Assembly (NCBI GenBank): GCA_013100825.1
Contig: CP040001.1
Coordinates: forward strand, 558,001 to 622,000
Origin: Candidatus Saccharibacteria bacterium oral taxon 488
GTDB taxonomy: Bacteria > Patescibacteriota > Saccharimonadia > Saccharimonadales > Saccharimonadaceae
Length of the DNA stretch: 64,000 bases
Direction of reading: 5' to 3'
Positions 1,669-64,000 of this stretch are shown here, one piece after another. How positions within the stretch are numbered: the first letter of the stretch is position 1; the number at the start of each line of letters is the position of its first letter. The notes beneath the pieces were generated by a model. The model was not told the DNA's origin and made no database searches. It worked only from the letters and a program-made list of their open reading frames with translations. The translations under genes and the position numbers were made by a program.

Positions 1669-3179
1669 TACTTACCTTGAGTTTCTGCTTTTGGTGCGCG
1701 CGGATCAGGCGTATGGAGATGGAGACGCGGGAACAATGGCGTCAGCTGTGATGGCACGACACCGCTGGCAAACATGTCGTGAATTTTCTCGGCGGTTTGC
1801 GGCATAAATGGACGAAGCATATCAGACACTTGCAGTAATGTTCCGCAAGCATGCGCCAAAATCTCGCCCAAATGTGCTTCCGCCTCTGGATCCTTGGCGC
1901 GCTTTTTGGCAACTTGCCATGGTTGCACGCGCTCAATATATTGATTCAATGAACGGATAATCTGCCAAATCTCATCAATTGCTAGATTAAAGTTCAAAGA
2001 TTCCATATCAGCACGGTACGGCCCCATATCGTGTTCAGACTGCGGCGCATCGCCAATAACGCCGGCTTGATAACTCTGCACCATCTTTGCCACCCGCTGC
2101 ACCAAATTACCCAGGTCATTGCCCAGCTCGCCGTTGTAGGCCGCTTCAAATTTCTCCCAGGTAAAGTCACCGTCATCTTGCGTCGGCACATGACGCAGGA
2201 AATAATAGCGAAAGGCCTCAACGCCGTAGTGCGGGATGATGTCAGCTGGACCAATGCCATTACCGAGACTCTTGCTCATTTTAGTGCCGCCAACGTTGAT
2301 AAATCCGTGTACCAACAGCACCTTTGGCAGTGGCAAGTCCAGCGCCATTAACATCGCCGGCCAAATCCCGGCATGAAAACGAAGGATATCCTTGCCGATC
2401 ACCTGTACATCTGCCGGCCAAAACGCCTGCCATTCCTCAGCTCGATCAGGATAGCCGATGACCGTGATGTAATTGCTTAGCGCATCCAGCCAGACATACA
2501 TCACCTGCGTGTCATCGCCTGGTACTGGCACACCCCAGCTCAGGTTCTTACGCGGACGCGAAACCGACACATCTTTCAGTCCATCTTTCATCAATTCCAA
2601 AAACTCTTTTTTACGGAATTCAGGCACAATTTTCATCTTGTTTGATGCAATAGCCTGACGAATGTTCTCCGAAAATGCACTGGTTTTGAAATAATAATTT
2701 TCCTCACGCAGCCGCTGATATGGCGCCTGGTGATCAGGACAAATGCCATTATTTTCAGCCGCCTCCTTGTCAGTGACGAATGCCTCACAACCTTGGCAGT
2801 ACCAGCCCTCATACGTGTCTTTGTAAATATAGCCAGCCGCAGCCAGCTTCTGCCAAATATACTGCACCGCGCTAACGTGATGCGGGTCAGTCGTGCGGAT
2901 AAAATCGGTCGCCGAAATATTCAACTCAGCGATCATGTTCTGGAAATTGCCGTGCATTTGATCGACGTAAGCTTGCGGCGTCTGGTTTTGGCTGGCAGCC
3001 TTGGCAGCAATCTTATTGCCATGCTCATCCACACCCGTCTGAAAACGCACCTCGCGACCGTTTTGCCGCTGATACCGCGTCCAGACATCTGCCAACATAT
3101 AGTCCATGGCGTGCCCAATGTGCGGCAAACCGTTGACATAAGGAATAGCAGTAGTAATGTAGGCGTGTTGTTTAGTCAT
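1668..3179 (-). CDS. metG: methionyl-tRNA synthetase
   Basis: Charges tRNA-Met with methionine. From the ATG at 3179 the protein is 503 aa. The class I signature HIGH is at residues 20-23 and KMSKS at 300-304. A single zinc knuckle has ligands Cys128, Cys131, Cys147 and His150. There is no C-terminal tRNA-binding (EMAP-like) domain, so this is the short form. In-frame ATGs exist at 3188 and 3215, but a -10 box TACAAT lies exactly 7 nt before 3179, which fits a leaderless start there. It heads the metG-tatD unit. Confidence 0.95.
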   Translation of the reverse strand: MTKQHAYITTAIPYVNGLPHIGHAMDYMLADVWTRYQRQNGREVRFQTGVDEHGNKIAAKAASQNQTPQAYVDQMHGNFQNMIAELNISATDFIRTTDPHHVSAVQYIWQKLAAAGYIYKDTYEGWYCQGCEAFVTDKEAAENNGICPDHQAPYQRLREENYYFKTSAFSENIRQAIASNKMKIVPEFRKKEFLELMKDGLKDVSVSRPRKNLSWGVPVPGDDTQVMYVWLDALSNYITVIGYPDRAEEWQAFWPADVQVIGKDILRFHAGIWPAMLMALDLPLPKVLLVHGFINVGGTKMSKSLGNGIGPADIIPHYGVEAFRYYFLRHVPTQDDGDFTWEKFEAAYNGELGNDLGNLVQRVAKMVQSYQAGVIGDAPQSEHDMGPYRADMESLNFNLAIDEIWQIIRSLNQYIERVQPWQVAKKRAKDPEAEAHLGEILAHACGTLLQVSDMLRPFMPQTAEKIHDMFASGVVPSQLTPLFPRLHLHTPDPRAPKAETQGK

Positions 3180-3186
3180 GATACTC

Positions 3187-3192
3187 ATTGTA
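3187..3192 (-). promoter_or_regulatory. -10 box of metG, leaderless spacing
   Basis: TACAAT followed by 7 nt and then the metG ATG. No convincing -35 was seen. The same layout recurs at 16 other gene starts in the window. Confidence 0.55.
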
Positions 3193-3236
3193 TCATCATC
3201 TGGAACAATTTTCACCGATATGCGTTCGCCGAGGGC

Positions 3237-3977
3237 TCACCCGCGCATCATTGCTACTACTGCAATTCGCCCCGCCGTATCACCCGATGAGTGCGAAAAA
3301 TAATTTGGATTGTCCGCTGTATCAATTGGCGAAATGACAATATTATTAGCCGGAACGCCTGCCTGGACGGCCAACGAACGATTGAATCCTTGCATGTCCA
3401 GATAAATTCCGTCAGCCGTTTGACGGCAGAAATTTTGCCAATTCGTATCATTTGTATGATTAAAATAATCCATACGGTAATTTTTCTGGGTGATACTTGG
3501 CGACATCCAAATTTGCAAATCTTTTGCCTGACTACCACGCTCGGCAAAATACTGGACTGCCCTTGTCATCAACTGTGCGACCGTTGAATGTCGACCCAGA
3601 TGCGCCAACATCAGCGCCCGACGTTTTGGGTCATAAATGACCGTAGCGATACAGTCCGCCACTGGCAAAAATAAACCGACACCAGTCGCTTCGGTATATA
3701 ATGCGTCAGCAAAAATCCCCTCGCTGTTATATTTGACCGTATCAGACTCAGCAACTTCGGCGATATTATCAAACGTTTGTCCTTGGTCATATGAAACCAC
3801 TTGATAAACAACGTCGTCATACTTAACACCGATTTGATCGCAAAACCGCCGCCGATTTTCCAGCACCTCAGCTACGTGGCGACCGCGAATACGGTTGAGC
3901 ATGGTGCCGTCGTCTTTCGATGAAACCGCAATGAGCAGATTAGAGGGAAAACACGTCGGCTGATCTGCTGTAATCAT
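3237..3977 (-). CDS. PgeF/YfiH (DUF152) family protein with altered metal site
   Basis: A 246-aa protein with the fold signature of the YfiH/PgeF peptidoglycan-editing, laccase-like family: ADC with Cys109, then LAHLGRHS with His126, and a C-terminal NYFSHSSGDTAGR that matches the usual ending. The third metal ligand of the family, a His in a QVH motif, is not seen; the equivalent region reads YQVVSYDQG. Activity may therefore be altered. I chose the ATG at 3977 because it overlaps the rsmA stop as ATGA; a GTG at 3989 is the alternative. Confidence 0.75.
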   Translation of the reverse strand: MITADQPTCFPSNLLIAVSSKDDGTMLNRIRGRHVAEVLENRRRFCDQIGVKYDDVVYQVVSYDQGQTFDNIAEVAESDTVKYNSEGIFADALYTEATGVGLFLPVADCIATVIYDPKRRALMLAHLGRHSTVAQLMTRAVQYFAERGSQAKDLQIWMSPSITQKNYRMDYFNHTNDTNWQNFCRQTADGIYLDMQGFNRSLAVQAGVPANNIVISPIDTADNPNYFSHSSGDTAGRIAVVAMMRG

Positions 3978-9220: not shown

Positions 9221-11325
9221 TACTTATAGTATAACAGGAAAAAGTACGCCGCTGCACCGCCGCCAACGCCGATAAGGGCAAAAAGAATGATCAATAGAAT
9301 CGTCCCGATGCCGGATTTTTTCTTATCAGGCTGGAGCGCTTCCCCGGTGGCTGGCTGGCTGGCTGCCGCATCAAACATCGGCTCTGGATCTGGTGCGATC
9401 TCGTCACCGGCGGTGTACTGCTGAGGAATGTCGCCCGGAGTGTGCGGTCGACGTGGCGTCTCATCATCAGCTATCTCAGCGCCACTCTCGTCCATCGACT
9501 CGATCGCCATGAGCTCACTGTCCAGCTCTGATGTATCAGCGGCGGGCTGCTTGGACGAAGCATCTACTGATGTGGCATCTGTGTCGAGCTGTTCACCGAC
9601 CTCGCTGGCTTCAATTTCATCAATGGTTGCTTCAAGGCTCGTACGATCAGCAGTAATGTCAGTATCAGCCGCCTCATCCGTCACCAGATGATCATCATCG
9701 GCCGTCAACTCATCCATGGTCAGCCCTTCACTATCAGCTGCCTTAGCCGGAGCGTCCTCTGCCAGCAAGCCCTCCTCGATAAAGGCGCTGTCAGTACTAG
9801 CCTCGGCTTCACTGGCCATTGATTCATAATCAGGCACGTCCTTGGTATTGAGCGACACATTGTCTGACGTCAGACCTTCAGCTACGTGCGATGGATCGGG
9901 CTGCAGAACGAGGCGTGGTGGTCGACGCTTGATCTCGCGATCAGCTGCCGATGAATGAGCGGTGCTATCATCTGCCATCATATCACTTGACACGTCCTCA
10001 GTAGTTTCAGCCATGTTAACACCCTGCTGGCCGTCATTACCAGCCCGACTGGAGAGATACGAACCAGTCGGCTGAAGCTTTACGCCAGTGCGCGGCTGAG
10101 AAACGCTATGCCCGCGCATGACAGATGACGGATGTACAACGTCCATGAAACGGCCAGACGGTCGACGCGAAATAGCTGGTGAGGGAGCGACAGCCGGCTC
10201 GTCATCATGTTTTGTATCTGAAGAATCATCAGTTGGTTTTGCTGCTGACGTATCGGCCACTTTATCCTGCGGCGCGTCTGAGGCGGGTTGGCCATCCGCC
10301 TTTTTATCTGGTGTTTTGATATCTGGAAATACCACAGCCGGTTTAGTTTCTGAGGCAGCGTGTGGAAAGCCGTTGGCCTCCGCCGTCGACGGTGAAGTCG
10401 TCTCCTCGGTAGATGATTTTTGTAGTGAGGTCGGTGGCTCGCCCTGTGGCTCACTGTGTGGCTCATCATGACTAGACTCCGGGGTTATTGACTGGGTCGA
10501 CGGTGCTGGTGTCGAGGCAGTCGATGACGAGACAGACGACGAGGTTGTCTTGAACGATGGTATCGGCTCAAGCGTCAGCTTCGAGACAGGCTTTGGCTCT
10601 GTAACAGAAATCGGGACAGCAGTCGGTACTGGTGTTGCTGCAGCCGCTGGCGGCGCACTTGGAGTGTCCGACGAGACTGATGATTGCGTTGTCTTGGCCG
10701 GGGCTGGTGGCTTGCTTGTATTGGTACTCGTTGACTCAAATGCGGGTACGGTTGATATGGTTGGGGTTGGGGTTGGGGTTGGAGGCACAGACACGGGCGT
10801 CGACGGCGGTGCTGGCGTCGCTGTTGGTGCAGCGGTCGGCGACGGAGGCGTTAGCGGCTTGATGGTCAATGGCGGAATCGGCGTTGATGGCGTGGTGGCA
10901 GGCGACGGTGGGGCTGACGGAGCAGGAGTCGCTGGGGTTACCGACGAAGACGGCGACGTGAGTGGTGACGATGGCGTCGACGTTAATTCCGGCTTCTCAA
11001 TCGGCTGCGGCGCAGTAGCCACTGGCGCGCTCGGTGGCGTTGACAATGACACCGCAGGTTGCGGCGCAACTGGCTTGGGTTGAGGGCTTGGCGGCGTGAC
11101 CGGAGGTGTCGCTACTGGCTCAGGCTGAGAAGCGGGGGCGCTAGATTGAACAGATTCAGGCGATGATACCTTCACCGTATCTTCAGCAGGGCTAGCCGCG
11201 GGTGTTGCCGACGTCGCCACGTCCGTATCAACATCAGTCGTCTGCTGAGCCGCTTCTTTCTCTGCCCGTTTCTGCATCAGTGATGTCACTGCCCGATCAA
11301 GTTCGTCAAAATCAATGTCTGACAT
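9220..11325 (-). CDS. 701-aa intrinsically disordered, tail-anchored membrane protein
   Basis: Unrecognised. A short N-terminal helix-like segment (SDIDFDELDRAVTSLMQKR) is followed by about 300 residues of Pro/Ser/Thr/Ala low complexity with PTPTPTPT repeats. Next come about 300 acidic residues rich in Asp, Glu, Thr and Ser, and a single C-terminal transmembrane helix preceded by KKK. The positive flank suggests the long region is cytoplasmic, but the reverse topology cannot be excluded. There are no cysteines. The SD is AGGGGGG just after tpiA, so it is likely cotranscribed with the glycolytic genes and uvrD. It may act as a spacer or scaffold; function unknown. Confidence 0.8.
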   Translation of the reverse strand: MSDIDFDELDRAVTSLMQKRAEKEAAQQTTDVDTDVATSATPAASPAEDTVKVSSPESVQSSAPASQPEPVATPPVTPPSPQPKPVAPQPAVSLSTPPSAPVATAPQPIEKPELTSTPSSPLTSPSSSVTPATPAPSAPPSPATTPSTPIPPLTIKPLTPPSPTAAPTATPAPPSTPVSVPPTPTPTPTISTVPAFESTSTNTSKPPAPAKTTQSSVSSDTPSAPPAAAATPVPTAVPISVTEPKPVSKLTLEPIPSFKTTSSSVSSSTASTPAPSTQSITPESSHDEPHSEPQGEPPTSLQKSSTEETTSPSTAEANGFPHAASETKPAVVFPDIKTPDKKADGQPASDAPQDKVADTSAAKPTDDSSDTKHDDEPAVAPSPAISRRPSGRFMDVVHPSSVMRGHSVSQPRTGVKLQPTGSYLSSRAGNDGQQGVNMAETTEDVSSDMMADDSTAHSSAADREIKRRPPRLVLQPDPSHVAEGLTSDNVSLNTKDVPDYESMASEAEASTDSAFIEEGLLAEDAPAKAADSEGLTMDELTADDDHLVTDEAADTDITADRTSLEATIDEIEASEVGEQLDTDATSVDASSKQPAADTSELDSELMAIESMDESGAEIADDETPRRPHTPGDIPQQYTAGDEIAPDPEPMFDAAASQPATGEALQPDKKKSGIGTILLIILFALIGVGGGAAAYFFLLYYK
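10759..10782. repeat. GGTTGG tandem repeat, possible G-quadruplex
   Basis: The plus strand reads as three GGGG runs separated by TT, flanked by GG on both sides. It encodes the PTPTPTPT stretch of the disordered protein on the minus strand. The G-rich strand is the template strand for that gene. Confidence 0.6.
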
Positions 11326-14795: not shown

Positions 14796-14801
14796 ATTAT
14801 A
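14796..14801 (-). promoter_or_regulatory. -10 box of pyk, leaderless spacing
   Basis: TATAAT, then 7 nt, then the pyk ATG. It lies in the short gap after rnc. Confidence 0.6.
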
Positions 14802-19860: not shown

Positions 19861-19866
19861 AGTATA
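19861..19866 (-). promoter_or_regulatory. -10 box of leuS, leaderless spacing
   Basis: TATACT, then AAGGAGT (7 nt), then ATG. The AAGGAG is only 1 nt from the ATG, too close to work as an SD. Confidence 0.6.
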
Positions 19867-22537: not shown

Positions 22538-22543
22538 ATCATA
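22538..22543 (-). promoter_or_regulatory. extended -10 of MurF-like gene, leaderless spacing
   Basis: TGGTATGAT, then AAAGGGG (7 nt), then ATG at 22530. The extended TGN element compensates for a poor -35. Confidence 0.6.
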
Positions 22544-22722: not shown

Positions 22723-23160
22723 CTACAATTCCTTAGCAAAAGCGTTAGTGCTACGTACGACTGCGCCCTTTTTCAAGTAGAATTGCTGCGCCGCTTCACG
22801 TTCTGGGCGTGATGTGAATTCTAATTTCAAAGCGCCCTGCTCGCGACCCCAGTCGATGATAGCGTCCCAGAGTTGAGAGCCGACGCCCCTGCCCTGGATA
22901 GTCGGATCAGCAACGAAATCGTCGAGGTAGATCTTGCGCCCAGCAGCTGGCCCCAGTAATAACGCCACCGTTGCCATGCCAACGACTTTGCCTGATAACC
23001 GTGCCAACAGCAACACATGACTCGGCGAGTCGATAATCTGCTGCAACAGCTTGGTGTCAGCTGGATGTGGCTTGCTGGTAAGCGCCGCGATAAGGTTGGT
23101 AATGTCTGCCACATCAGATTCAGTGATGTGGGATGCTCGTTCAATTGTCAATTCGTCCAT
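22723..23160 (-). CDS. GNAT family N-acetyltransferase
   Basis: A 145-aa acetyl-CoA-dependent acetyltransferase. Acetyl-CoA-binding motif A is visible as VADPTIQGRGVGSQLW, the Q/RxxGxG/A pattern, and motif B as QFYLKKGAV. The N-terminal region ERASHITESDVADITNLIAAL is typical. The substrate is unknown. It diverges from pta with only 20 bp between the start codons, and both are predicted leaderless with overlapping -10 boxes. Confidence 0.9.
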   Translation of the reverse strand: MDELTIERASHITESDVADITNLIAALTSKPHPADTKLLQQIIDSPSHVLLLARLSGKVVGMATVALLLGPAAGRKIYLDDFVADPTIQGRGVGSQLWDAIIDWGREQGALKLEFTSRPEREAAQQFYLKKGAVVRSTNAFAKEL

Positions 23161-23174
23161 GCTTCCATTATACT
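23145..23174. promoter_or_regulatory. overlapping divergent promoters of GNAT and pta
   Basis: Plus strand: TTGTCA (23145-23150), 18-bp spacer, TATACT (23169-23174), 6 nt, pta ATG. Minus strand: TATAAT (23167-23172), 6 nt, GNAT ATG. The two -10 hexamers overlap in the 8-bp ATTATACT. Confidence 0.65.
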
Positions 23175-23180
23175 ATACCC

Positions 23181-24020
23181 ATGAATCAGCACATACGAGA
23201 CCTAGCAAAAATTTTAGCTTCAAATCCGCCACGCGTGGTATTTCCTGAGGGCAATAATCACATCATCCAGCAGGCGGCGCGCGCACTAGAAGAAAGCGGC
23301 GCAGTGCAGCCAGTATTGCTTGATGGGGAAGAGGACGCCATCAGTCGCGGTGCAACGATGCTAACGAGCGGCGAGGCCGACGTTATGGTGGCTGGAATTG
23401 ATCACCCAACGAAAGACGTGCTGCGGGCTGGGCTGAAAATTGTTGGACTGGCGCCCGATGTTCGATATGCATCCAGTTTTTTCGTGATAGACGTCCCACA
23501 GTTTCAGGGCGGCGAACAAGGTTTATTGCTCTTTGCCGACTGCGGTATGAATATTCAGCCAAACGCCGAGCAGCTGGCGGCGATTGCCATGTCCTCAGCG
23601 GATAGTGCGGCGTCGCTTGGCTGGCAGCCACGCGTGGCTATGCTGTCATATTCAACGAAAGGCAGCGCTGGCGGTGATAGTGTCGAGCTCGTCACCCAGG
23701 CACTACAACTCGTCAAGACAGGGCGACCCGATATACTCATTGATGGCGAACTACAATTAGACGCGGCAATCGTCCCTGCTATCGGCCAGAAAAAATCACC
23801 AAGCAGTCCGGTTGCTGGCAGGGCCAATGTCCTTATTTTCCCTGATCTTGATTCTGGTAATATCGCGTATAAGTTAGCCGAACATCTGGCCAGCGGCCAT
23901 GCATACGGGCCAATCTTGCAAGGTTTTGCCCGGCCGATCAGCGACCTATCTCGCGGCTCTAGCGTTGATGATGTGATCGGCGCTACGCTTATTACTGCCG
24001 GTATGGCGCGAACTTCATAG
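23181..24020 (+). CDS. pta: phosphate acetyltransferase (Pta catalytic domain)
   Basis: Interconverts acetyl-CoA and acetyl phosphate; with an acetate kinase elsewhere it would give ATP from fermentation. The 279-aa protein is a single Pta/PTB-type catalytic domain, with PPRVVFPEGNNHIIQQAAR, GLAPDVRYASSFFVID, ADCGMNIQPNAEQLAAIA, ARVAMLSYSTKGSAGG-like VAMLSYSTKGSAG, and a C-terminal NVLIFPDLDSGNIAYKLAEHL. It is shorter than the usual about 325 aa. I chose the ATG at 23181 over 23133 because of the leaderless -10 spacing and the alignment of the family start. Confidence 0.93.
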   Translation: MNQHIRDLAKILASNPPRVVFPEGNNHIIQQAARALEESGAVQPVLLDGEEDAISRGATMLTSGEADVMVAGIDHPTKDVLRAGLKIVGLAPDVRYASSFFVIDVPQFQGGEQGLLLFADCGMNIQPNAEQLAAIAMSSADSAASLGWQPRVAMLSYSTKGSAGGDSVELVTQALQLVKTGRPDILIDGELQLDAAIVPAIGQKKSPSSPVAGRANVLIFPDLDSGNIAYKLAEHLASGHAYGPILQGFARPISDLSRGSSVDDVIGATLITAGMARTS

Positions 24021-24604: not shown

Positions 24605-24610
24605 ATTATA
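24605..24610 (-). promoter_or_regulatory. extended -10 of Ham1-like gene 1, leaderless spacing
   Basis: TGCTATAAT, then 7 nt, then ATG at 24597. Confidence 0.6.
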
Positions 24611-25022: not shown

Positions 25023-25028
25023 ATAATA
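25023..25028 (-). promoter_or_regulatory. extended -10 of deoxyribosyltransferase-like gene, leaderless spacing
   Basis: TGCTATTAT, then 6 nt, then ATG at 25016. Confidence 0.5.
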
Positions 25029-29803: not shown

Positions 29804-30679
29804 TTACATCTTCGTTGCATTACTTCGCAGACGTGCGATTCGATCTTCTAGTGGCGGGTGGGTGCTAAATAACTTTGAGAAAAAGCCAGGGCGCAGCGGA
29901 TTATTCATAAACAAGTTCGCCGTTGAGGTACTCTGCTTGCGCATTGGCCGACCATAACTTTGTAACTTCTCCAGTGCCATCGCCAGCCCCTCCGAGTCGC
30001 GAGTCAATAGCGCGCCCGAGGCATCCGCGAGATACTCGCGCTGGCGGCTCACCGCCAGTTGCGTAATCGTTGCTAAAATCGGTGCCAATATTACTACTAT
30101 GATACCCACGACGTAGACAACCGGACTGGTATCCCCGTCATCATCATCACCATAAATCATCATCCGGAGTGCGATATCAGCAAGCAACCCAATAGCACTC
30201 ACCAACCCAAAGGCAATCATACTAACGCGAATATCGTAGTTGCGCACATGGCTCATCTCGTGCGCCATCACCGCCTCGAGCTCGCGCTTGTCCATAATTT
30301 CTAACAGCCCAGTAGTCGCACCGACGATAGCGTGCTTTGGATCGCGGCCCGTCGCAAACGCGTTCGGCGCTGGATCATCAATAATGTAGACTTTTGGCAT
30401 CGGCATACCGGAGGTAATCGCCAGGTTTTCTACTACTCGCCACAGCTCCGGCGCATCCTTCTTTTCAATCTGCTGCGCACCGCTCATCGCCATGGCCAAT
30501 TTACCAGCAATATAATATTGTAACCACGCATAAAGCAGTGCACAACCGACAATGATCAACGACAATGAATAGTTCCGTAGATACATACCGACCAGTACAC
30601 CAATCACGCCGATAATCGCCACAAACACTGCCATGATCAGCACAGTGTTTCGCTTATTATGAGAAATTGCACTATACAT
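29804..30679 (-). CDS. htpX: HtpX-type membrane zinc metalloprotease
   Basis: Degrades misfolded membrane proteins. The 291-aa protein has two N-terminal membrane segments (about 12-31 and 39-58), the zinc motif His140-Glu141-x-x-His144, two further hydrophobic segments (about 156-172 and 185-210), and the third ligand region REYLADASGA. The end LFSTHPPLEDRIARL is diagnostic. It lies just downstream of lemA, a known neighbour. It has its own leaderless promoter after a terminator. Confidence 0.96.
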   Translation of the reverse strand: MYSAISHNKRNTVLIMAVFVAIIGVIGVLVGMYLRNYSLSLIIVGCALLYAWLQYYIAGKLAMAMSGAQQIEKKDAPELWRVVENLAITSGMPMPKVYIIDDPAPNAFATGRDPKHAIVGATTGLLEIMDKRELEAVMAHEMSHVRNYDIRVSMIAFGLVSAIGLLADIALRMMIYGDDDDGDTSPVVYVVGIIVVILAPILATITQLAVSRQREYLADASGALLTRDSEGLAMALEKLQSYGRPMRKQSTSTANLFMNNPLRPGFFSKLFSTHPPLEDRIARLRSNATKM

Positions 30680-30686
30680 ATTAGAT

Positions 30687-30692
30687 ATTATA
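30687..30692 (-). promoter_or_regulatory. extended -10 of htpX, leaderless spacing
   Basis: TGGTATAAT, then 7 nt, then the htpX ATG. It directly follows the lemA terminator. Confidence 0.65.
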
Positions 30693-30693
30693 C

Positions 30694-30724
30694 CAAAAAC
30701 CGCCCGCCGAAAATAGGCGAGCGG
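30694..30724 (-). terminator. rho-independent terminator of lemA
   Basis: CCGCTCGCC, 7-nt loop, GGCGGGCGG (one G-T pair), then TTTTT, reading on the minus strand 28 nt after the lemA stop. Confidence 0.8.
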
Positions 30725-30751
30725 CTTAGTTCAGGCAAAGATTATCCTGCC

Positions 30752-37228: not shown

Positions 37229-38812
37229 TTATGATGATAGCATAAGCTTAATCTTTTTCGCTAGCTCTTTATCCACGATTTTTTCCAGGTCGGTGAGTAA
37301 GGCATTCCGTATACGGCTGATGCTGCCAAACTTTTTCAATAATTTGGCGCGGGTTTTTGGCCCAATGCCAGGAATTTCCTCCAGCTGGTTTTTCGTTTGC
37401 TGCTGGCGTTTGAGGGCCGTGTGGTAGCTCACCGCAAAGCGGTGCGACTCGTCGCGGATGCGCTGGAACAGTTTGACGATGTCGGTTGTCGCAAGGGTAT
37501 TCTCGTCCGCCGTTGGACGTTCGTTGCGAGTTTGCTCCATGCTAGCTCGTAAGTTTTTTGAGTGCGAACTGGCGTTACGCTGACTTGGGTGTAAATTCAC
37601 CACATAGACATCGCCATCTTCGTGAATAGTAATATCCGACCGCGGCTGTGACCGCATTTGCTCAATGAACGCTATATCAATCTGTGAACCAATCTTATGT
37701 ACTAGCAGCTCTTCCTCGCGCTTGGCAATGCTGATAATCGGCACGGTGACGCCACGCTCATCACGCGCTTTGATGGCTGCCGCTAGCTGACCCTTACCGC
37801 CATCAATCAGCAGCAGATCAGGACGACCCCAGCTTTTTAAATGACGCTCACTCAACCGGCGAAAAACCGTCTCATGCATATTACCCGTATCATCATTTTT
37901 CTCACTAACTTTAAACTTGCGGTATTCCGCCCGGTCGCTCGCGCCATTGGTAAATACCACCATACTAGCGACGACTTGCTGCCCGCTCATGTGTGAAATA
38001 TCATAACCCTCGATGCGTGCTGGGATATCTTTTAGGCCCAATAATTTCGCCAAATCAGCCAATGCCTTGTCCTTAGAAATATCCAAAAACTCTTTGTCGC
38101 CGAAACAAACTCGCCGCTGCAATTCCTGCATGGCGCGTAGTTTATTGCGAAGGTCGGCCGCCCGCTCAAAATCATGCAGCCCAGCTGCCGTTTTCATGTC
38201 GCGCTCCAGCTCGGCGGCGATGGCTTTACGATTACCCTTGATGTAACTGATGAGTTTGTGTAGATTAGCTTTGTAGGCAGCTGGCCCATCGCTTAGTCGC
38301 GGGCTGAGACCCAAATCTTCATCCAATTTCGACTGCCCTGGTCGCCGCTGCCTGGTTAAATACGGAAACACTCGCCGCAGATAGCGCAAGGCTTTTTTCA
38401 AGGCAAAGCCATTATAAAACGGGCCAACATATTCCGCGCCGTCATCCGCAGGATTGCGCGTAAAACTGACGGTCGGCCACTCACTTTTCATGTCGATGCG
38501 TACATACATCTGCGATTTATCATCACGCAGCAGCACGTTGTAGCGCGGCATGTAGCGTTTGACCATCTCGCTCTCCAAAAACAACGCGTCAACCTCGCTC
38601 TCGGTCTCAATCCAATCAGTATCAGCAATTTCCGCCACCAACGCCATGGTTTTATTGTCCCGCCCGCGCGAATCTTGAAAATACTGGCGCACGCGGTTAC
38701 GTAACACCGCCGCCTTGCCCACATAAATAATCTCGCCGCTGGCTGACTTATGAAAATAGACGCCAGGAGTGCGCGGTAGGGTCTTGAGTTTTTGCTGCAA
38801 CCGTTGATTCAC
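37229..38812 (-). CDS. uvrC: excinuclease ABC subunit C
   Basis: Makes the dual incisions in nucleotide excision repair. I prefer the GTG at 38812 (527 aa), because TATAAT lies exactly 7 nt upstream and the ATG at 38821 overlaps that -10. Features are the GIY-YIG domain (TPGVYFHKSASGEIIYVGKA), UVR motif HDFERAADLRNKL, RNase H-like endonuclease domain (IEGYDISHMSG, LLLIDGGKGQL), and C-terminal HhH IPGIGPKTRAKLLKKFGS. It is shorter than E. coli UvrC (about 610). It carries an extra Ser/Asn/Arg-rich stretch before IRDESHRFA. All three uvrABC-type partners except uvrA are in the window. Confidence 0.95.
   Translation of the reverse strand: MNQRLQQKLKTLPRTPGVYFHKSASGEIIYVGKAAVLRNRVRQYFQDSRGRDNKTMALVAEIADTDWIETESEVDALFLESEMVKRYMPRYNVLLRDDKSQMYVRIDMKSEWPTVSFTRNPADDGAEYVGPFYNGFALKKALRYLRRVFPYLTRQRRPGQSKLDEDLGLSPRLSDGPAAYKANLHKLISYIKGNRKAIAAELERDMKTAAGLHDFERAADLRNKLRAMQELQRRVCFGDKEFLDISKDKALADLAKLLGLKDIPARIEGYDISHMSGQQVVASMVVFTNGASDRAEYRKFKVSEKNDDTGNMHETVFRRLSERHLKSWGRPDLLLIDGGKGQLAAAIKARDERGVTVPIISIAKREEELLVHKIGSQIDIAFIEQMRSQPRSDITIHEDGDVYVVNLHPSQRNASSHSKNLRASMEQTRNERPTADENTLATTDIVKLFQRIRDESHRFAVSYHTALKRQQQTKNQLEEIPGIGPKTRAKLLKKFGSISRIRNALLTDLEKIVDKELAKKIKLMLSS
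37234..37239 (-). promoter_or_regulatory. extended -10 of the pilin gene, leaderless spacing
   Basis: TGCTATCAT, then 7 nt, then ATG at 37226. The box lies within the last codons of uvrC. Confidence 0.55.
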
Positions 38813-38819
38813 AGCTACC

Positions 38820-38825
38820 ATTATA
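38820..38825 (-). promoter_or_regulatory. extended -10 of uvrC, leaderless GTG start
   Basis: TTGATATAAT: TG one base before TATAAT, then 7 nt to GTG at 38812. Confidence 0.6.
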
Positions 38826-39656: not shown

Positions 39657-40394
39657 CTATTGTAAATCATTTGTCTTAGTTATATCAAGTAAATACCCTT
39701 CCAAAAACTGACTCCACTCCGGCACATTCTTTTCGCGGAAATAGGCATGAAGGAAATCAACCATAACGTGCTGACGCTTCCTCGCTTCTATTCGCCCCGG
39801 CTCCGTCAGCATCAAGCCTTTCAATTTCAGCAACTTCTCAAAAAAGTGATTAATAAAGCCGTCGGTATCATGCGTGTTGCCGTTAATGTCGTATTCTTCC
39901 GCCGCTAGATCAACATTTGGCCAAACCGCGGGGTCAAAAATCCGCCCACCGTGATGGCAGGCGTACATCAATCCTCGCTCAATCCCAACCGCGCCAATAG
40001 CATCGCACATGTCAGCGTCAGACACTAGCTGCCCCGCCAGCCGCCGCGGCTGCTGGCCGTCCAGCCGTTTACTATAACCAATCGCCGCAATATTTTCTAA
40101 TACCGCCTGACATAGGTCAGTATCCACTCCTGCATCCACCATACTATTGACCGCGTTCGTCAATTTCTCTGCCTGCGCTTTGCCAACTAATTTGTAATCG
40201 TCAATGTCATGCAACCAAGCCGTCAACAGCACTTCGTACAGATCTACCGGCTCATTACATTCGCTCGCAAAACGCTCCGCCAGAAAGGCCACCCGCTCAA
40301 CGTGATCATCAGCATGACCCGATGGGTCGCCGCCTAATATACCACGCACTTTATTTTTTATTGTCTCAAGTTGAGCTATCTGCCGTTCGTCCAT
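39657..40394 (-). CDS. HD-domain phosphohydrolase
   Basis: A 245-aa HD-superfamily protein. The metal pattern is H...HD...D: GHADDHVERV (about 26-35), AWLHDIDDYK (HD near 62-63), then SDADMCDAIG near the middle, with HHGG nearby. Related proteins act on nucleotides or other phosphates; the substrate is unclear. The C-terminal region (FFEKLLKLKGLMLTEPGRIEA) fits YedJ-like HD proteins. It is followed by the frameshifted gene 18 nt downstream. Confidence 0.88.
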   Translation of the reverse strand: MDERQIAQLETIKNKVRGILGGDPSGHADDHVERVAFLAERFASECNEPVDLYEVLLTAWLHDIDDYKLVGKAQAEKLTNAVNSMVDAGVDTDLCQAVLENIAAIGYSKRLDGQQPRRLAGQLVSDADMCDAIGAVGIERGLMYACHHGGRIFDPAVWPNVDLAAEEYDINGNTHDTDGFINHFFEKLLKLKGLMLTEPGRIEARKRQHVMVDFLHAYFREKNVPEWSQFLEGYLLDITKTNDLQ

Positions 40395-40400: not shown

Positions 40401-40406
40401 ATTGTA
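40401..40406 (-). promoter_or_regulatory. extended -10 of HD gene, leaderless spacing
   Basis: TGATACAAT, then 6 nt, then ATG at 40394. Confidence 0.55.
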
Positions 40407-40460: not shown

Positions 40461-40466
40461 TATAGT
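40461..40466 (+). promoter_or_regulatory. -10 of ThrE-like gene, leaderless GTG start
   Basis: TATAGT, then 6 nt, then GTG at 40473. TTTTCA at 40438-40443 with a 17-bp spacer is a possible -35. Confidence 0.5.
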
Positions 40467-41893: not shown

Positions 41894-44800
41894 TTATTTC
41901 AAGATCACACACTCGTCGCCCAGCACCTGGCGCAGCTGGCTCATGAGCTGGTCACCGGCCTCAACACGAAACGGCATGCGCATGGCGGATTTATTAGCCT
42001 CACCCAGCACTAGTACTACATCAGTCACGCCAGCGTATTCGGAGCAGAGTGACTTGAGTGCCACCAACTTGTCATGATCACTCGGGTTTTTGATATGAAG
42101 AAACAGCTTTTCTGTCTCGGGCACGGCGTGCGTAGCTACTGGACGCGGCGGCGTATTTGTTGTGTCAGTCGATGTCGACCTCACGTTTGTTCCGCTCGCT
42201 GTTGATGCTCGGGTTGCGCCCGCTCGCTGAGTCGTTTGAGTTCGAAATGCCGTACGCCGCTCTTGCTTAACCTTGTTACTCATCTTTGGCGCTTCCATTT
42301 TACGACCAGTTGCCTGATACTTTTGGAGGTCATCATCGGAAATCAGTTCAATTTCATCAGCAATCATCTTGCTCTCTAAGCCCAAATTACCGTCCCGATC
42401 ACGGGCTGAGTTTTTGCCGGTCACCCGAATGACGGCGTCCTGGACGAGCTTGGCACCGACTTGCTCATACAAATTTGGAAAGACGATAACCTCGCCCTCG
42501 CCAAATTTGTCTTCGATCCCGACGAACGCCATCTTGCTACCTGACTTGGTAACGATGGTGCGCACCGTCGTGATAATACCGCCAATTGTCATCAGCCGGC
42601 CATCATATTCTGGCACCAGCTGCGTTAATGGTTGCGCCTGCTCACTGAGATATATCTCGTAGGCATCCAGCGGATGCGCCGAAATATACAGCCCCATCAG
42701 CTCACGCTCCCACATCAGCCGTTCTTTGTTGGTGTGCTTGGCCGGCGCTGGCTGCAATTGCATCGTTGGCTGAACATCAGCCGACTCATCACCGAGCATA
42801 CCAAACAGGTCAGTCTGCCCTGATGCGGCTTCTTTCTGAGTCTTTTGGGCAAAAGCGACAATGGTATCAAGATTAAACAATAAATCAGACCGATCACCAA
42901 AGCTATCAAAGGCACCAGTTTTGATCAGCGACTCCCAGGCCTTGCGATTAAACCTACTGGTCGACACGCGCTTGGCAAAATCTTCGACTGACTTAAACGG
43001 GCCATCAGCCTCACGAGCACGGATAATTTCTTCGACTGCGCCAACGCCAACACCCTTGACCGCCGCCATACCGAAACGAATCTTCTTTTCATTAGGCACC
43101 ACCGCGAACTCGACGAATGACTCATTAACATCCGGGTTGAGCACTTCAATGCCCATGTGCTTACACTCGGTCATCTCGATGGCCAGGCGCTCAGTATCAT
43201 CCTGATCACTGGTCATCAGCGCTGCCATAAATGCGTCAGGATAGTGCGCCTTGAGATACGCCGTCCAGTAGGCGATCAGGCCGTAACACGCCGCGTGTGA
43301 CTTATTGAAACAATAGTTAGCAAATTCTTCCAGCGCATCCCAGAATTGCTCAGCAATTTCCTTGGTCGCGCCACCGACCTTAACCGCACCCTCAACGAAC
43401 TCCGGTTTAACCTTTTTCATCAAGTCGATTTTCTTTTTGCCCACCGCCTTACGCAGGGTGTCAGCTTGGCCGCCGGTAAAGCCACACCACTCTTTGGAAA
43501 TCTGCATAAATTGCTCTTGATAAACCAAAATGCCGTACGTATTCTTCAGCGAGTTTTCCATACCGGGGTGCAAGTAGGTAATTTCTTCTTCGCCGTGCTT
43601 GCGTTTGATGAACGAGTCGATAAACTGCATCGGCCCCGGCCGGTACAGGGCCACCATGGCGATGATGTCTTCAAAGACGCTCGGCTTTAGCTCGCGCAGG
43701 TACCGCTTCATGCCAGCCGATTCCAACTGGAACACGCCGGTGGTGTCACCGCGCTGGAATAATTTATAGGTTGCTTCGTCATCCAGTGGCAGCGTTGATA
43801 AATCAATATCCGTTTTGTAGACCTTACGAATAATACGCAGGGCGTTGTTGATAATGGACAAGTTAGACAGACCCAAAAAGTCCATCTTCAGTAGCCCGAG
43901 TTCCTCAACCGGACCCATGGGGTACTGCGTTGCCACCACGCCCTTTTGCGCCATCTCGAGCGGCACATATTTCACCAAGTCATCCGGTGCAATCACCACG
44001 CCGGCAGCATGCACACCGTGTGAACGAATCGTTCCCTCCAGCCGCGAAGCAAAGTCGTAGACAGTTTTGGCGGTCGGGTTGCTTTCATATTCTTTCTTGA
44101 GATCAGGGTCTTCCTCGAGCGACTTTTTGATCGGGACATGACGACCCTGCACAGGCGGCGGAATGAGCTTGGCCAGCCGGTCGGACTCGCCATATGGCAC
44201 CTGCAGCACCCGCGCCACATCACGCACCGAAGCGCGCGCTGCCATGGTGCCAAAGGTACAAATGTTAGCCACTCGTTCTGAGCCATATTTCTTGGCACAA
44301 TATTCAATCACCTCACCGCGGCGAGTATCTTGAATGTCGATATCGATGTCGGGCATGGAGATACGGTCGGGGTTGAGAAATCGCTCGAACAGCAGGTCGT
44401 AATGCAGCGGGTCAAGGTCGGTGATGTTCAGCGCATAGGCGATGATTGAACCAGCTGCCGAACCACGCCCCGGCCCAAAGATAATCCCTTGAGATTTGCC
44501 CCAGTTGATGAAATCCTGGACGATCAAAAAATAGCCGTTATAGCCCATGTTGTCAAGCACGCCAAACTCCATGTCCAGTCGCTCTAGCTGTGCCTCTGAT
44601 AACTTGGCTCGCAGTTGGTCATTTGGTAGTTTCTTTGCATCCTCTAACTTCATGCCAGCGTACCGCGCTGCCATACCGCTATACACCAGATGATCCAGAT
44701 ATTCCTTTTCGGATTCACCGTTTGGCGTTGGAAATTTCGGGATGAGAATATCGCCAAGTTTAATTTCTACGTCACACCGATCGGCGATGGCCTTAGTATT

Positions 44801-45661
44801 GGCGATTGCCTGAGGATTGGTTGTTTGCCACCGCGAAATGATGTCTTCCGGTGTGGTCAAATGCAACTCAAAATCCTTCAAGCTCATCCGCTTTTCATCA
44901 CTCAAATACGCACCAGTACCGACGCATAGCAAAATCTCATGCGCCTCTTGGTCTTCGTGATTAAGGTAATGGCCGTCGCTGGTCACCACACACGGAATGT
45001 CTAGTTCCTCGCTAATGCGCTCAATATAATCATTGACCTTTTTCTGCTCCGGCCAGTGACTGCGCGCTTCCGGGTGACCATGGTCTTGGAGCTCCATGTA
45101 GTACCGGTCGCCAAACACTGACTTGTACCAGCCAGCGATTTCCTTGGCCTTTTCATAATCATCATTACGCAAATTCTCGCCCAGCTCACCACCGATACAG
45201 CCAGACATACAGATGATGCCTTCGTTGTATTGTTCCAATAGTTCGTGGTCAATGCGCGGCTTGTAATAGACACCTTCGAGGTTGGCGACAGTGCTGAGCT
45301 GCATCAGGTTTTGATAGCCCTTGTGGTTCATGGCCAGCAGCGTCAGGTGATAACGCGCCTTGTCCTTGGCGGGGTCGCGGTCATGACGAGTGCGGGCTGC
45401 TACGTAGGTTTCGATGCCGATGATTGGCTTGATGCCAACATTCTTGGCCGCTTTATAAAACTCAATCGCGCCCGACATCGTGCCGTGGTCAGTAATAGCA
45501 CAAGCCTCCATACCCAGCTCCTTCACTCGGGCAACCATGTCAGGAATTTTAGTCAATCCGTCTAGGAGCGAATGGTGAGTGTGGTTGTGTAGGTGCACGT
45601 AATCAGACGGCTGCAACGTGGCCGCAACTTTGGCTGAAGCTGTCGTATGTTTGGTAGCCAT
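41894..45661 (-). CDS. dnaE: DNA polymerase III alpha subunit
   Basis: The replicative polymerase, 1255 aa. N-terminal PHP domain with VHLHNHTHHSLLDG and CAITDHGTMSGA, then the catalytic palm with PDIDIDIQDTRR, FGPGRGSAAGS, LYRPGPMQFIDSFI, the tandem HhH region (MAAVKGVGVGAVEEI), and an OB-fold (LMTIGGIITTVRTIV). A low-complexity linker (about 1160-1190, Thr/Ser-rich) precedes a C-terminal domain with LFLHIKNPSDHDKL. No separate proofreading domain (polC-type) is present. GGAGG is 11 nt upstream and partly within a GCGCC/GGCGC hairpin. Confidence 0.97.
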   Translation of the reverse strand: MATKHTTASAKVAATLQPSDYVHLHNHTHHSLLDGLTKIPDMVARVKELGMEACAITDHGTMSGAIEFYKAAKNVGIKPIIGIETYVAARTRHDRDPAKDKARYHLTLLAMNHKGYQNLMQLSTVANLEGVYYKPRIDHELLEQYNEGIICMSGCIGGELGENLRNDDYEKAKEIAGWYKSVFGDRYYMELQDHGHPEARSHWPEQKKVNDYIERISEELDIPCVVTSDGHYLNHEDQEAHEILLCVGTGAYLSDEKRMSLKDFELHLTTPEDIISRWQTTNPQAIANTKAIADRCDVEIKLGDILIPKFPTPNGESEKEYLDHLVYSGMAARYAGMKLEDAKKLPNDQLRAKLSEAQLERLDMEFGVLDNMGYNGYFLIVQDFINWGKSQGIIFGPGRGSAAGSIIAYALNITDLDPLHYDLLFERFLNPDRISMPDIDIDIQDTRRGEVIEYCAKKYGSERVANICTFGTMAARASVRDVARVLQVPYGESDRLAKLIPPPVQGRHVPIKKSLEEDPDLKKEYESNPTAKTVYDFASRLEGTIRSHGVHAAGVVIAPDDLVKYVPLEMAQKGVVATQYPMGPVEELGLLKMDFLGLSNLSIINNALRIIRKVYKTDIDLSTLPLDDEATYKLFQRGDTTGVFQLESAGMKRYLRELKPSVFEDIIAMVALYRPGPMQFIDSFIKRKHGEEEITYLHPGMENSLKNTYGILVYQEQFMQISKEWCGFTGGQADTLRKAVGKKKIDLMKKVKPEFVEGAVKVGGATKEIAEQFWDALEEFANYCFNKSHAACYGLIAYWTAYLKAHYPDAFMAALMTSDQDDTERLAIEMTECKHMGIEVLNPDVNESFVEFAVVPNEKKIRFGMAAVKGVGVGAVEEIIRAREADGPFKSVEDFAKRVSTSRFNRKAWESLIKTGAFDSFGDRSDLLFNLDTIVAFAQKTQKEAASGQTDLFGMLGDESADVQPTMQLQPAPAKHTNKERLMWERELMGLYISAHPLDAYEIYLSEQAQPLTQLVPEYDGRLMTIGGIITTVRTIVTKSGSKMAFVGIEDKFGEGEVIVFPNLYEQVGAKLVQDAVIRVTGKNSARDRDGNLGLESKMIADEIELISDDDLQKYQATGRKMEAPKMSNKVKQERRTAFRTQTTQRAGATRASTASGTNVRSTSTDTTNTPPRPVATHAVPETEKLFLHIKNPSDHDKLVALKSLCSEYAGVTDVVLVLGEANKSAMRMPFRVEAGDQLMSQLRQVLGDECVILK

Positions 45662-50600: not shown

Positions 50601-50606
50601 ATTATA
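50601..50606 (-). promoter_or_regulatory. extended -10 of the gat operon, leaderless spacing
   Basis: TGCTATAAT, then 7 nt, then the gatC ATG. Confidence 0.65.
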
Positions 50607-60703: not shown

Positions 60704-60709
60704 AGCAAA

Positions 60710-61809: not shown

Positions 61810-61815
61810 GGGTTT

Positions 61816-61844
61816 AGTATAAGCGGTTTGGGCGATATTTGCAA
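61816..61844 (-). promoter_or_regulatory. promoter of rpiB operon, leaderless spacing
   Basis: TTGCAA (61839-61844), 17-bp spacer, TATACT (61816-61821), then 6 nt to the ATG at 61809. One of the few leaderless promoters here with a recognisable -35. Confidence 0.7.
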
Positions 61845-61872
61845 CTAATCAAGTCCTTGGAAGCTCAACTCA

Positions 61873-62562
61873 TCACGTCGAGCCGCAGCTGGCCAACACC
61901 TTGCCCATCGCCTCTTTTTCTGCATTTGTTACCCACAGACGATATTTACGCTTAACCGCTACCTGCCGTTCAATGTACTGACAGCGAAACGGTTTGTTAG
62001 GAGGCAGCCAGGTTGCCGCGTCGCCATCGCCTTTGGCTTGGTTGGCCGGACCGTCAGCAGCCAACAAATTCAGCGGGTCGTTTGCCAATTTTTCTCGTTC
62101 CTCACGTGGTAGTTGCTGTGCACCTTTCTGCCACGCATCACTCAACGCCACCACGTGATCGATTTGTACTTTCGACGAGGTCTCTGGCCCGCGCTGAAAC
62201 TTGATCGTTCGGCCGGTATACGGGTCACGTAGTGTCCCGGCCAACACGCGACATTTATCGTCAATTTTTGTTTCCGTTAGATCCCGCGCCAAAATTACTT
62301 CACGCACCGAGCAGCCACTCATTTTACCCCAACCATCACTAAATTGTTTGCGGCTGTAGCCCGTTTTAGGTGCGCGACCTTTAACCTCTAGTTTAGCTAA
62401 CTCCGCTTGAGCGTTTGAATCACCAAATAATTTCCGCTGCATGGACGGCGAAGTCGGCGCGACCCGCGGCTGCTGCAGTTGCACCGCCCACACTACTGCA
62501 CCCACCACCGCCATGACAAGCAGTACCATGATTTGCCGACGCCTTATTTTCCCCGTTGCCAT
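61873..62562 (-). CDS. secreted HNH/GmrSD-type (DUF1524) endonuclease
   Basis: A 229-aa protein. A basic start followed by a hydrophobic helix (about 11-28) acts as a signal or anchor. The nuclease core reads QIDHVVALSDAWQKGAQ (Asp135-His136), then NDPLNLLAADGPANQAKGDGD with the Asn residues of the HNH fold, and PFRCQYIERQVAVKRKYRLWV. Four cysteines (84, 104, 194, 226) fit extracellular disulfides. It probably degrades external DNA for nucleotide scavenging or uptake. It diverges from the aminopeptidase gene, 21 bp apart. Confidence 0.9.
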   Translation of the reverse strand: MATGKIRRRQIMVLLVMAVVGAVVWAVQLQQPRVAPTSPSMQRKLFGDSNAQAELAKLEVKGRAPKTGYSRKQFSDGWGKMSGCSVREVILARDLTETKIDDKCRVLAGTLRDPYTGRTIKFQRGPETSSKVQIDHVVALSDAWQKGAQQLPREEREKLANDPLNLLAADGPANQAKGDGDAATWLPPNKPFRCQYIERQVAVKRKYRLWVTNAEKEAMGKVLASCGST

Positions 62563-62569
62563 AATCTAT

Positions 62570-62577
62570 ATTATAAT
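62570..62577. promoter_or_regulatory. shared symmetric -10 of nuclease and aminopeptidase genes
   Basis: ATTATAAT is a palindrome-like 8-mer. On the minus strand TATAAT (62570-62575) lies 7 nt before the nuclease ATG; on the plus strand TATAAT (62572-62577) lies 6 nt before the aminopeptidase ATG at 62584. Confidence 0.65.
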
Positions 62578-62583
62578 GAAAGT

Positions 62584-64000
62584 ATGAAAACAGTTCCACG
62601 CCTACTCGACACCTTTATACCACATCATTACACATTAACTCTCGATCTGACGCACGCTGAAGAAAAAGCGTTTTCTGGCACGGTAATCATTTCTGGCGAG
62701 TCAACTAATGAATTAATTTCGCTACACACCAAAGACTTGACCATTCATTCAGCGTTAATTGACGATCAGCCAGCTGAGTTTTCCCATGATGAATTTGATG
62801 AGCTGCGCCTATCGCGCCCAGATTTATCCAGCGGCCAGCGCACCGTTCGTGTTGAGTTTTCTGGCACTATCACCGACGCCATGCATGGACTGTATCCGTG
62901 CTACTTTACCCACGACGGCGTGAAAAAGCAATTGTTTGCCACCCAATTTGAATCGCACCATGCCCGCGAAGTCTTTCCGTGTGTTGATGAGCCAGCTGCC
63001 AAAGCCACCTATGACGTCACGCTTGTGACTGCTCCGGAACTAACCGTCCTAGGCAACATGCCCGTCGCCAAATCTTCTAAAGACGACGGCGTGCTAACAA
63101 CCACCTTCGCCACCACACCACGGATGAGCAGCTACTTACTGGCTTTCGTTGTCGGCGAACTACACAAGAAAACTGCCCGCACTAAATCTGGCGTCGAGGT
63201 AAATGTCTGGGCCACACCAGCTCAGAGCGAGGAGACCCTAGATTTTGCGCTAGATATCGCCACGCGCTCCATTGATTTTTACGATGAATATTTTGGCGTG
63301 CCATATCCGCTGCCAAAATCCGATCACGTAGCGCTGCCAGATTTCTCTTCGGGCGCCATGGAAAACTGGGGACTCATCACCTACCGCGAAAGTTGCCTGC
63401 TGGCTGATCCGAAATTAACGCCGGAATCGTCCAAACGCTTTATCGCCACCGTCATCTCTCACGAACTCAGCCACCAGTGGTTTGGTAATTTGGTGACCAT
63501 GCAGTGGTGGAATGACCTGTGGCTGAACGAAAGTTTCGCTAACATGATGGAATACGTGGCGATCGACGCACTACACCCTGAGTGGCGGATGTGGGAGGAA
63601 TTTGCGACAAGCGAGGTCACCGCGGCACTGCGGCGCGATAGCCTGGACGGTGTCCAGCCAGTGCAGGCCGACGTTAATCATCCGGATGAGATCAGCACGT
63701 TGTTTGACCCAGCAATTGTCTATGCAAAGGGCGGGCGTCTACTGGTGATGGTACGGCGGCTGATCGGCGAGGAGGCGTTTCGTGCAGGGCTGAAGTCATA
63801 TTTTGAAAAATTTGCTTACCAAAACACTGTTGGTAATGATTTATGGCAGGAGCTAGAAACCGCCAGCGAACAGCCGATTGTTGACTTGATGAACACTTGG
63901 ATTTCGCAGCCAGGTTTGCCGATTGTACAGGTCGAGCAAGATAGTTCTGATAGACAACCTACCGCCACCCTGCGCCAGGAACGCTTTTTCATCGGTGATC
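62584..64000 (+). CDS. pepN: M1 family aminopeptidase (N-terminal part)
   Basis: The frame runs from ATG 62584 to the window end (472 codons). It shows the M1 beta-sandwich N-terminal domain (HHYTLTLDLTHAEEKAFSGT, HHAREVFPCVDEPAAKATYD), the exopeptidase motif GAMEN near residue 257, and the zinc site HELSHQWFGN near 293 with the distal Glu in WLNESFANMMEY near 316. Removes N-terminal residues from peptides, fitting reliance on external peptides. The C-terminal helical domain lies beyond the window. The symbol is by family only. Confidence 0.93.
   Translation, partial: MKTVPRLLDTFIPHHYTLTLDLTHAEEKAFSGTVIISGESTNELISLHTKDLTIHSALIDDQPAEFSHDEFDELRLSRPDLSSGQRTVRVEFSGTITDAMHGLYPCYFTHDGVKKQLFATQFESHHAREVFPCVDEPAAKATYDVTLVTAPELTVLGNMPVAKSSKDDGVLTTTFATTPRMSSYLLAFVVGELHKKTARTKSGVEVNVWATPAQSEETLDFALDIATRSIDFYDEYFGVPYPLPKSDHVALPDFSSGAMENWGLITYRESCLLADPKLTPESSKRFIATVISHELSHQWFGNLVTMQWWNDLWLNESFANMMEYVAIDALHPEWRMWEEFATSEVTAALRRDSLDGVQPVQADVNHPDEISTLFDPAIVYAKGGRLLVMVRRLIGEEAFRAGLKSYFEKFAYQNTVGNDLWQELETASEQPIVDLMNTWISQPGLPIVQVEQDSSDRQPTATLRQERFFIGD

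Follow-up and report, generated by a model that had tools for sequence, protein, structure and literature searches.

Where, relative to the start codon, do the mRNAs of a saccharibacterial chromosome begin? The question is raised by a 64,000-nucleotide (nt) stretch of contig CP040001.1 of Candidatus Saccharibacteria bacterium oral taxon 488 (here called the window), in which a first-pass annotation had listed 17 gene starts with a TANNNT hexamer, taken as a -10 promoter element, exactly 6 or 7 nt before ATG or GTG, and had interpreted them as leaderless promoters. All 17 placements were found as described when read in the sequence, and the interpretation is supported by a non-flat positional histogram, by TG before the hexamer, by TTG at the -35 distance, by a pyrimidine at position -1 and by placement at first genes. 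With a probability of about 0.9, we regard these elements as σ70-type promoters set at the gene start, which would yield leaderless or nearly leaderless mRNAs with leaders of 0 to 3 nt.

By its sequence the window is Saccharibacteria-like; the best matches of its leuS protein are Candidatus Saccharibacteria contigs (83% to OX335598.1). Open reading frames (ORFs) and family profiles indicate mostly housekeeping genes, including metG, pyk, leuS, murF-like, pta-like, htpX-like, uvrC, gatC, rpiB and pepN, several of the family assignments scoring under the curated NCBIfam cut-off. Genome-wide statements made below concern the genomes of relatives rather than the window's own genome.

Position of the -10 hexamers

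An annotation-free scan considered hexamers of the form TA...T with at most one mismatch to TATAAT, upstream of any ATG or GTG opening at least 80 codons. In the window, it gave 9 and 14 matches at spacings of 6 and 7 nt and 0 to 9 at any other spacing up to 40 nt; shorter frames gave 5 and 14 at the same two spacings, in an overall range of 1 to 14. Across 18 Saccharibacteria loci (one of which, L012, carries a Chloroflexi label but reaches 73% in leuS), 40 and 49 matches were found at spacings 6 and 7, with 5 to 26 at other spacings, and 59 loci of other bacteria gave 50 and 64, within their range of 24 to 86.

For called genes, which were chosen by coding score, the mean number of genes per spacing over 12 to 45 nt served as background. 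Of 58 called window genes (pepN, which extends past the window edge, is excluded), 17 carry the hexamer at 6 or 7 nt over a background of 1.24 genes per spacing (Poisson P = 1.3e-9), and about 2.5 of these 17 could be chance; among the window's ATG and GTG codons other than candidate starts, the corresponding count was 26 of 3878. The same peak was found in stretches of a relative's genome, G001 (66 of 343 genes; background 6.71 per spacing; P = 9e-25), and in ten other loci, nine labelled Saccharibacteria or TM7 and one "uncultured bacterium" (44 of 203 genes; background 4.18; P = 4e-18); unrelated loci, with Elusimicrobia set apart, had 20 of 806 genes at these spacings over a background of 18. 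At spacings 5, 6, 7 and 8, the window has 0, 6, 11 and 0 genes and the G001 stretches have 2, 44, 22 and 11, a profile with the sharp edge that a fixed distance between the -10 element and the transcription start predicts. The flat positional histogram that the first-pass annotation had named as counter-evidence to its interpretation was not seen; the histogram is far from flat.

Promoter marks, gene context and homologues

For a closer description of these starts, we used a set of 137 leaderless-type starts among 600 gene rows (window, G001 and ten other loci), selected by hexamer, spacing, start codon, coding score and Shine-Dalgarno (SD) score. One base before the hexamer, T and G were found at frequencies of 0.66 and 0.76 for spacing 6 and of 0.65 and 0.64 for spacing 7. 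Among all candidate starts, TG preceded the hexamer in 42 of 70, 37 of 64, 7 of 13 and 17 of 28 cases at spacings 6, 7, 8 and 9, respectively, compared with 111 of 431 at spacings 12 to 45, a background that may include ordinary led promoters, and 8 of 62 at spacings 0 to 5. At the -35 distance, 22 to 24 nt ahead of the hexamer, 31 of the 137 starts have TTG, as compared with 2 to 9 at ten control distances. From spacing-6 to spacing-7 sites, the hexamer and both marks are displaced together by one base, which ties the marks to the promoter rather than to the start codon. Spacings of 8 to 10 nt, equivalent to leaders of 1 to 3 nt, also occur; a bump at spacing 9 was considered as double counting of tandem starts, which was rejected because only 3 of 28 such starts have another start codon at 6.

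The usual bacterial initiator is a pyrimidine followed by A. At the starts described here, the A of the initiator is the A of ATG, and an A at +1 is thus built into the selection. A pyrimidine stands directly before the start codon at 15 of the 17 listed window sites and at 67 of 71 spacing-6 starts, as compared with 109 of 191 SD starts (P = 9e-10); among starts with neither a -10 element nor an SD sequence, 111 of 170 have one there. ATG was the start codon in 128 of the 137 leaderless-type starts versus 160 of the 191 SD starts (P = 0.0098), with scoring having favoured ATG in both sets.

With 29 rows at contig edges excluded, leaderless-type starts made up 121 of 402 starts with an upstream gap of at least 20 nt or a divergent neighbour (14 of 29 in the window) and 14 of 169 starts with a same-strand gap below 20 nt, giving an odds ratio of 4.8 (P = 3e-9) for first-gene context; for 11 of the 92 same-strand starts, the -10 element begins within the preceding gene. 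The accompanying claim that operon-internal genes use SD sequences instead holds for a part of these genes, as SD sequences of at least 5 bases precede 83 of the 155 other tight-operon starts.

In all 15 leuS relatives read (50 to 90% identity, at least 50 nt of upstream DNA), a -10 element lies 7 to 10 nt before the ATG (by hand count, 4 at 7, 4 at 8, 6 at 9 and 1 at 10), while the remaining upstream DNA is dissimilar by eye. The single homologues of gatC and pyk also have the element at 6 to 7 nt. Taken together, the homologue spacings suggest that the rule is one of closeness, with leaders of 0 to 3 nt and with 6 to 7 nt as the mode.

Alternative explanations and spread across Patescibacteria

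DNA before start codons tends to be AT-rich, and the hexamer could thus reflect local AT bias or represent a translation signal, with the true promoters lying further upstream and giving ordinary leaders; the literature has indeed read TA-like signals both as promoters and as initiation signals (PMC3160421). This explanation appears very improbable to us. The window peak covers just two bases and no gene has spacing 5, on which ground general AT bias was rejected; TG and the -35 TTG move with the hexamer; spacing-6 starts have the pyrimidine at -1 far more often than SD starts do; and the starts are placed at the first genes of units. One might also suppose that the promoters are real but serve later, SD-led starts, with the mRNA 5' end falling near the listed codon by accident. 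Several ORFs do have more than one in-frame start, and the start-choice score favours the hexamer pattern and ATG, so that start choice alone is no counter-argument. We nevertheless hold this reading to be very improbable, since the leuS relatives have their first codons in common right after dissimilar upstream DNA, since the listed starts of metG, leuS and uvrC are only a few residues from where the family profiles begin, and since, without start choice, the excess is confined to start codons of long frames; an artefact of start choice alone was rejected because the annotation-free scan shows the excess. Finally, the sites were originally picked by eye, which would favour a chance cluster in one window, but the P value in the window, the annotation-free scan and the same peak in the ten other loci and in G001 leave chance with a negligible probability, and it was rejected.

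Several observations do weigh against reading these sites as leaderless promoters. Chance supplies some of the matches, perhaps about 24 of 127 across the window, G001 and the ten loci; once background is subtracted, the counts fall to about 14.5 of the window's 58 genes, 53 of 343 for G001 and 36 of 203 for the ten loci. The spacing in leuS relatives ranges from 7 to 10, and other homologues are mixed with regard to a -10 element at 6 to 7 nt (murF 5 of 12, ham1 2 of 4, htpX 3 of 4, at 6 nt, and thrE 0 of 1); for 10 of the 18 window sites (Table 1), no homologue was found in the loci searched, and metG matches reach only 22 to 24% identity. At spacing-7 starts, the base at -1 is a pyrimidine in just 47 of 66 cases. 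SD sequences of at least 5 bases were found at 127 of 308 remaining starts and at 6 of 137 leaderless-type starts, a low rate that is partly forced because the -10 element occupies the place of the SD sequence. In addition, 26 of 286 Patescibacteria genomes have no excess of the pattern.

These 286 genomes contain TATAAT followed by ATG 13327 times at N6/7 and 6806 times at N18/19; 260 have more at 6 to 7 than at 18 to 19, 188 of them significantly at 5% false discovery. The 25 that are known to belong to the class of G001 give 1676 versus 523, and the other 261 give 11651 versus 6283, with an excess in 235. By comparison, 17 unrelated genomes (Clostridia and other Bacillota, Selenomonas and Dehalococcoidia) gave 1458 at 6 to 7 versus 1485 at 18 to 19, with an excess in 7; one Dojkabacteria genome gave 80 versus 73 and one other Patescibacteria genome 31 versus 20. 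Against a reversed pattern, which keeps base content but not neighbour content and is thus the weaker control, TATAAT-N6/7-ATG was more frequent in all 12 genomes behind the loci (103 versus 23 in G001), and TGNTATAAT-N6/7-ATG occurred 5176 versus 184 times in the class of G001 (above control in 144 of 147 genomes). In a second class, to which G179 and G201 belong, the counts are 717 versus 71, and 58 of 59 genomes exceed the control.

Spacing profiles were obtained from stretches of genomes picked mostly for high counts and hence not a random sample. At spacings 5 to 9, stretches of G179 have 0, 22, 13, 12 and 6 of 139 genes and those of G201 have 2, 21, 7, 4 and 4 of 137. At spacings 5 to 7, the counts are 0, 7 and 1 of 76 genes for G114; 0, 6 and 6 of 84 for G053; 2, 11 and 6 of 114 for seven mixed stretches; 0, 4 and 0 of 33 for three more stretches of the second class; and 0, 14 and 5 of 76 for six Saccharimonadia stretches. 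No clear peak at 6 to 7 was seen in stretches of G290, G282, G140, G060/G070/G068 and Dojkabacteria (P = 0.11 to 0.56), which were chosen for low counts and are small samples of 14 to 87 genes each. We somewhat favour the broader view that Patescibacteria commonly express genes in leaderless form, perhaps as an ancestral trait, with at least two classes showing it, about a quarter of the genes using it in some genomes (35 of 139 genes in G179 have the element at 6 to 7 nt, and more have it at 8 to 9) and some lineages having lost it; ribosomes of the phylum would then routinely start on bare 5' start codons.

Outside this phylum, three Elusimicrobia genomes (G300, G303 and G308, behind loci L026, L037 and L049) contain TATAAT before ATG at N6/7 versus N18/19 in ratios of 33/1, 33/6 and 38/3, and 6 of 95, 4 of 83 and 1 of 33 genes in Elusimicrobia stretches have a hexamer at 6 to 7 nt (P = 0.0003, 0.002 and 0.16); leaderless genes may thus be found in Elusimicrobia too.

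The mechanism that we propose for the leaderless-type starts would use a σ70-type promoter, often with an extended -10 element (TGnTATAAT) and a weak -35 element. Transcription generally starts about 7 nt downstream of a -10 element; RNA polymerase with the main σ factor would bind the -10 element and start at, or no more than about 3 nt from, the start codon. With the start codon placed at the transcription start, the mRNA would open with it, or nearly so, and the ribosome would initiate on the 5'-terminal codon without SD contact, while many operon-internal genes, and tuf, would retain leaders and SD-like sites. The sequence itself shows position, promoter marks, the -1 base, operon context, leuS conservation and spread; from these we infer, with good support, a transcription start at or near the start codon. 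Initiation on the 5'-terminal codon would follow from such a transcript start together with work on other bacteria, including that described in PMC12340547.

Individual sites, genes with leaders and related systems

The window sites are listed in Table 1. Beyond the 17 starts of the first-pass annotation, of which 7 have a spacing of 6 nt and 10 a spacing of 7 nt, the start at 9220 represents a good extra site, giving 18 in all; an automatic match at 45538 was discounted because it lies inside the ORF at 41894-45661. An extended TGN, claimed for many of the 17, precedes the hexamer in 11. Other details of that annotation fared less well: 7-nt spacers were said to look SD-like often, which is too strong for the 3 of 10 found by reading (leuS, murF and pyk), and the protein labelled HD at 40394 has no Pfam match at E 0.001.

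Table 1. Putative -10 elements next to gene starts in the window (positions in the window; spacing in nt between hexamer and start codon)
Gene or product	Start codon	-10 element	Strand	Hexamer	Extension	Spacing	Remark
metG	ATG 3179	3187..3192	-	TACAAT	TGA	7	metG by family profile
UvrD-type helicase	ATG 9220	9228..9233	-	TATACT	TGT	7	
pyk	ATG 14788	14796..14801	-	TATAAT	TGT	7	L094 relative also at 7
leuS	ATG 19853	19861..19866	-	TATACT	TGA	7	-10 kept in 15/15 relatives, at 7-10 nt
murF-like	ATG 22530	22538..22543	-	TATGAT	TGG	7	homologues 5/12 at 6-7
GNAT	ATG 23160	23167..23172	-	TATAAT		6	overlaps pta -10
pta-like	ATG 23181	23169..23174	+	TATACT		6	
Ham1/RdgB-like	ATG 24597	24605..24610	-	TATAAT	TGC	7	homologues 2/4 at 6-7
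deoxyribosyltransferase-like	ATG 25016	25023..25028	-	TATTAT	TGC	6	
htpX	ATG 30679	30687..30692	-	TATAAT	TGG	7	preceded by terminator-like hairpin and T run (by eye); relatives 3/4 at 6
pilin-like	ATG 37226	37234..37239	-	TATCAT	TGC	7	
uvrC	GTG 38812	38820..38825	-	TATAAT	TGA	7	
protein 39657-40394	ATG 40394	40401..40406	-	TACAAT	TGA	6	first-pass label HD; no Pfam match
ThrE-like	GTG 40473	40461..40466	+	TATAGT		6	homologue 0/1
gatC	ATG 50593	50601..50606	-	TATAAT	TGC	7	L092 relative at 6
rpiB	ATG 61809	61816..61821	-	TATACT		6	
GmrSD_C-domain protein	ATG 62562	62570..62575	-	TATAAT		7	first-pass label HNH nuclease; overlaps pepN -10
pepN	ATG 62584	62572..62577	+	TATAAT		6	

Two divergent pairs, GNAT/pta (23160-23181) and GmrSD_C protein/pepN (62562-62584), have just 20 to 21 nt between them, and in both the two -10 hexamers overlap in one near-symmetric 8-mer (ATTATACT and ATTATAAT); from these sequences, one short symmetric element may serve both leaderless genes of a pair. 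No such shared symmetric -10 element was found in divergent pairs of 30 other Saccharibacteria loci scanned. The window holds two-sided matches at distances of 20 and 21 nt; those in other loci are at 40, 51, 51 and 64 nt, with non-overlapping hexamers. By eye, start-to-start distances of divergent genes showed no peak in the window and these 30 loci. Several putative leaderless promoters lie directly after a terminator-like hairpin of the previous gene, seen by eye and mostly with a T run (window 30679-30740; leuS of L001, L002 and L008; gatC of L092), and the intergenic region at such sites consists of little beyond terminator and -10 element. Of 78 same-strand starts whose upstream gap is at least 20 nt, 21 have TTTT no more than 22 nt upstream of the -10 element, a count made without a control.

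With regard to SD-led initiation, no 16S gene is present in the window, but the 16S 3' end keeps CCTCCTTT in all six genomes of relatives that were examined, and hence the SD route seems intact. The 16S 3' end reads GGATTACCTCCTTT in four of four Saccharibacteria (L148, L149, L150 and L151) and GGATCACCTCCTTT in two other Patescibacteria (L152 and L153). Among the 600 start rows, the SD forms GGAGGTAA, GGAGGTCA and GGAGGTGA occur five times, twice and once, respectively. All nine genomes searched encode a presumed bS1, a protein with four S1 matches; three of the five bS1 starts read (L140, L142 and L144) have a similar leader, roughly GGAAGGRGTCT...AGACTTATG, in which GTCT and AGAC could pair to form a possible control element. 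The tuf gene scored above cut-off in 5 of 6 genomes; all 5 starts have a GGAG-type SD-like site and none has a -10 element at 6 to 7 nt, with an additional TATAAT 5 nt before the ATG in L193. For rpsJ, also recovered from 5 of 6 genomes, the starts in L203, L204 and L205 (L202 and L206 being left out) are led, with SD-like sites. Published cassettes have used the TM7x tuf and rpsJ promoters (PMC10633639); they are unlikely to represent a test of leaderless expression.

Patescibacteria, whose ribosomes are reduced and fast-evolving, make up a large and little-cultured share of bacterial diversity, and there are hardly any measurements of where their transcription and translation begin. Should many of their genes prove leaderless, re-annotation of gene starts would be needed, expression cassettes for the phylum should include leaderless designs, and the phylum would provide a test case for the antiquity of leaderless initiation and for its use by small ribosomes. 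YchF, a broadly conserved protein, has been reported to promote translation of leaderless mRNA (PMC12641178). Among the matches listed for leaderless genes in Patescibacteria, Saccharibacteria, TM7 or Nanosynbacter, we found no report, in a search that left preprints and most subscription papers outside its reach and thus does not prove novelty; two of the matches mention leaderless mRNA solely in their reference lists, and the available text of a Patescibacteria review (PMC11665869) does not contain the word "promoter".

Comparable arrangements are documented in other bacteria. As quoted in PMC9581028, GeneMarkS-2 predicted leaderless transcription in 21.6% of bacterial species, a set that may include some Patescibacteria, and in Actinobacteria, sequence analysis found about 20% of genes to have a TA-like signal some 10 bp before the start (PMC3160421); by contrast with the present case, the groups named in the accessible portions of these two sources do not include Patescibacteria, one genome being called unclassified. 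A close likeness is with Deinococcus-Thermus, where a -10-like TANNNT about 6 to 7 bp before the ORF gives leaderless mRNA for nearly one third of D. radiodurans genes, while a ribosome-binding site (RBS) motif serves other genes and some annotated starts lie upstream of the -10 motif; there the motif, most often TACACT, was tested by reporters and RNA-seq, and the domain-wide scan of that study omitted species "not clearly classified or symbiotic" (PMC12340547). The first-pass annotation had compared the spacing with that in Deinococcus and Actinobacteria; the published distances are about 6 to 7 bp for the former and about 10 bp for the latter (PMC12340547, PMC3160421). Common to Deinococcus and the starts described here are a -10-like TANNNT at about 6 to 7 nt and the use of RBS or SD sequences for other genes; by contrast, the hexamer here is TATAAT-like, often TG-extended, found in Saccharibacteria and other Patescibacteria, and known from sequence alone. 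As the layout is known from Deinococcus, Actinobacteria and others, the putative leaderless, -10-adjacent genes of the window would represent a known kind of feature.

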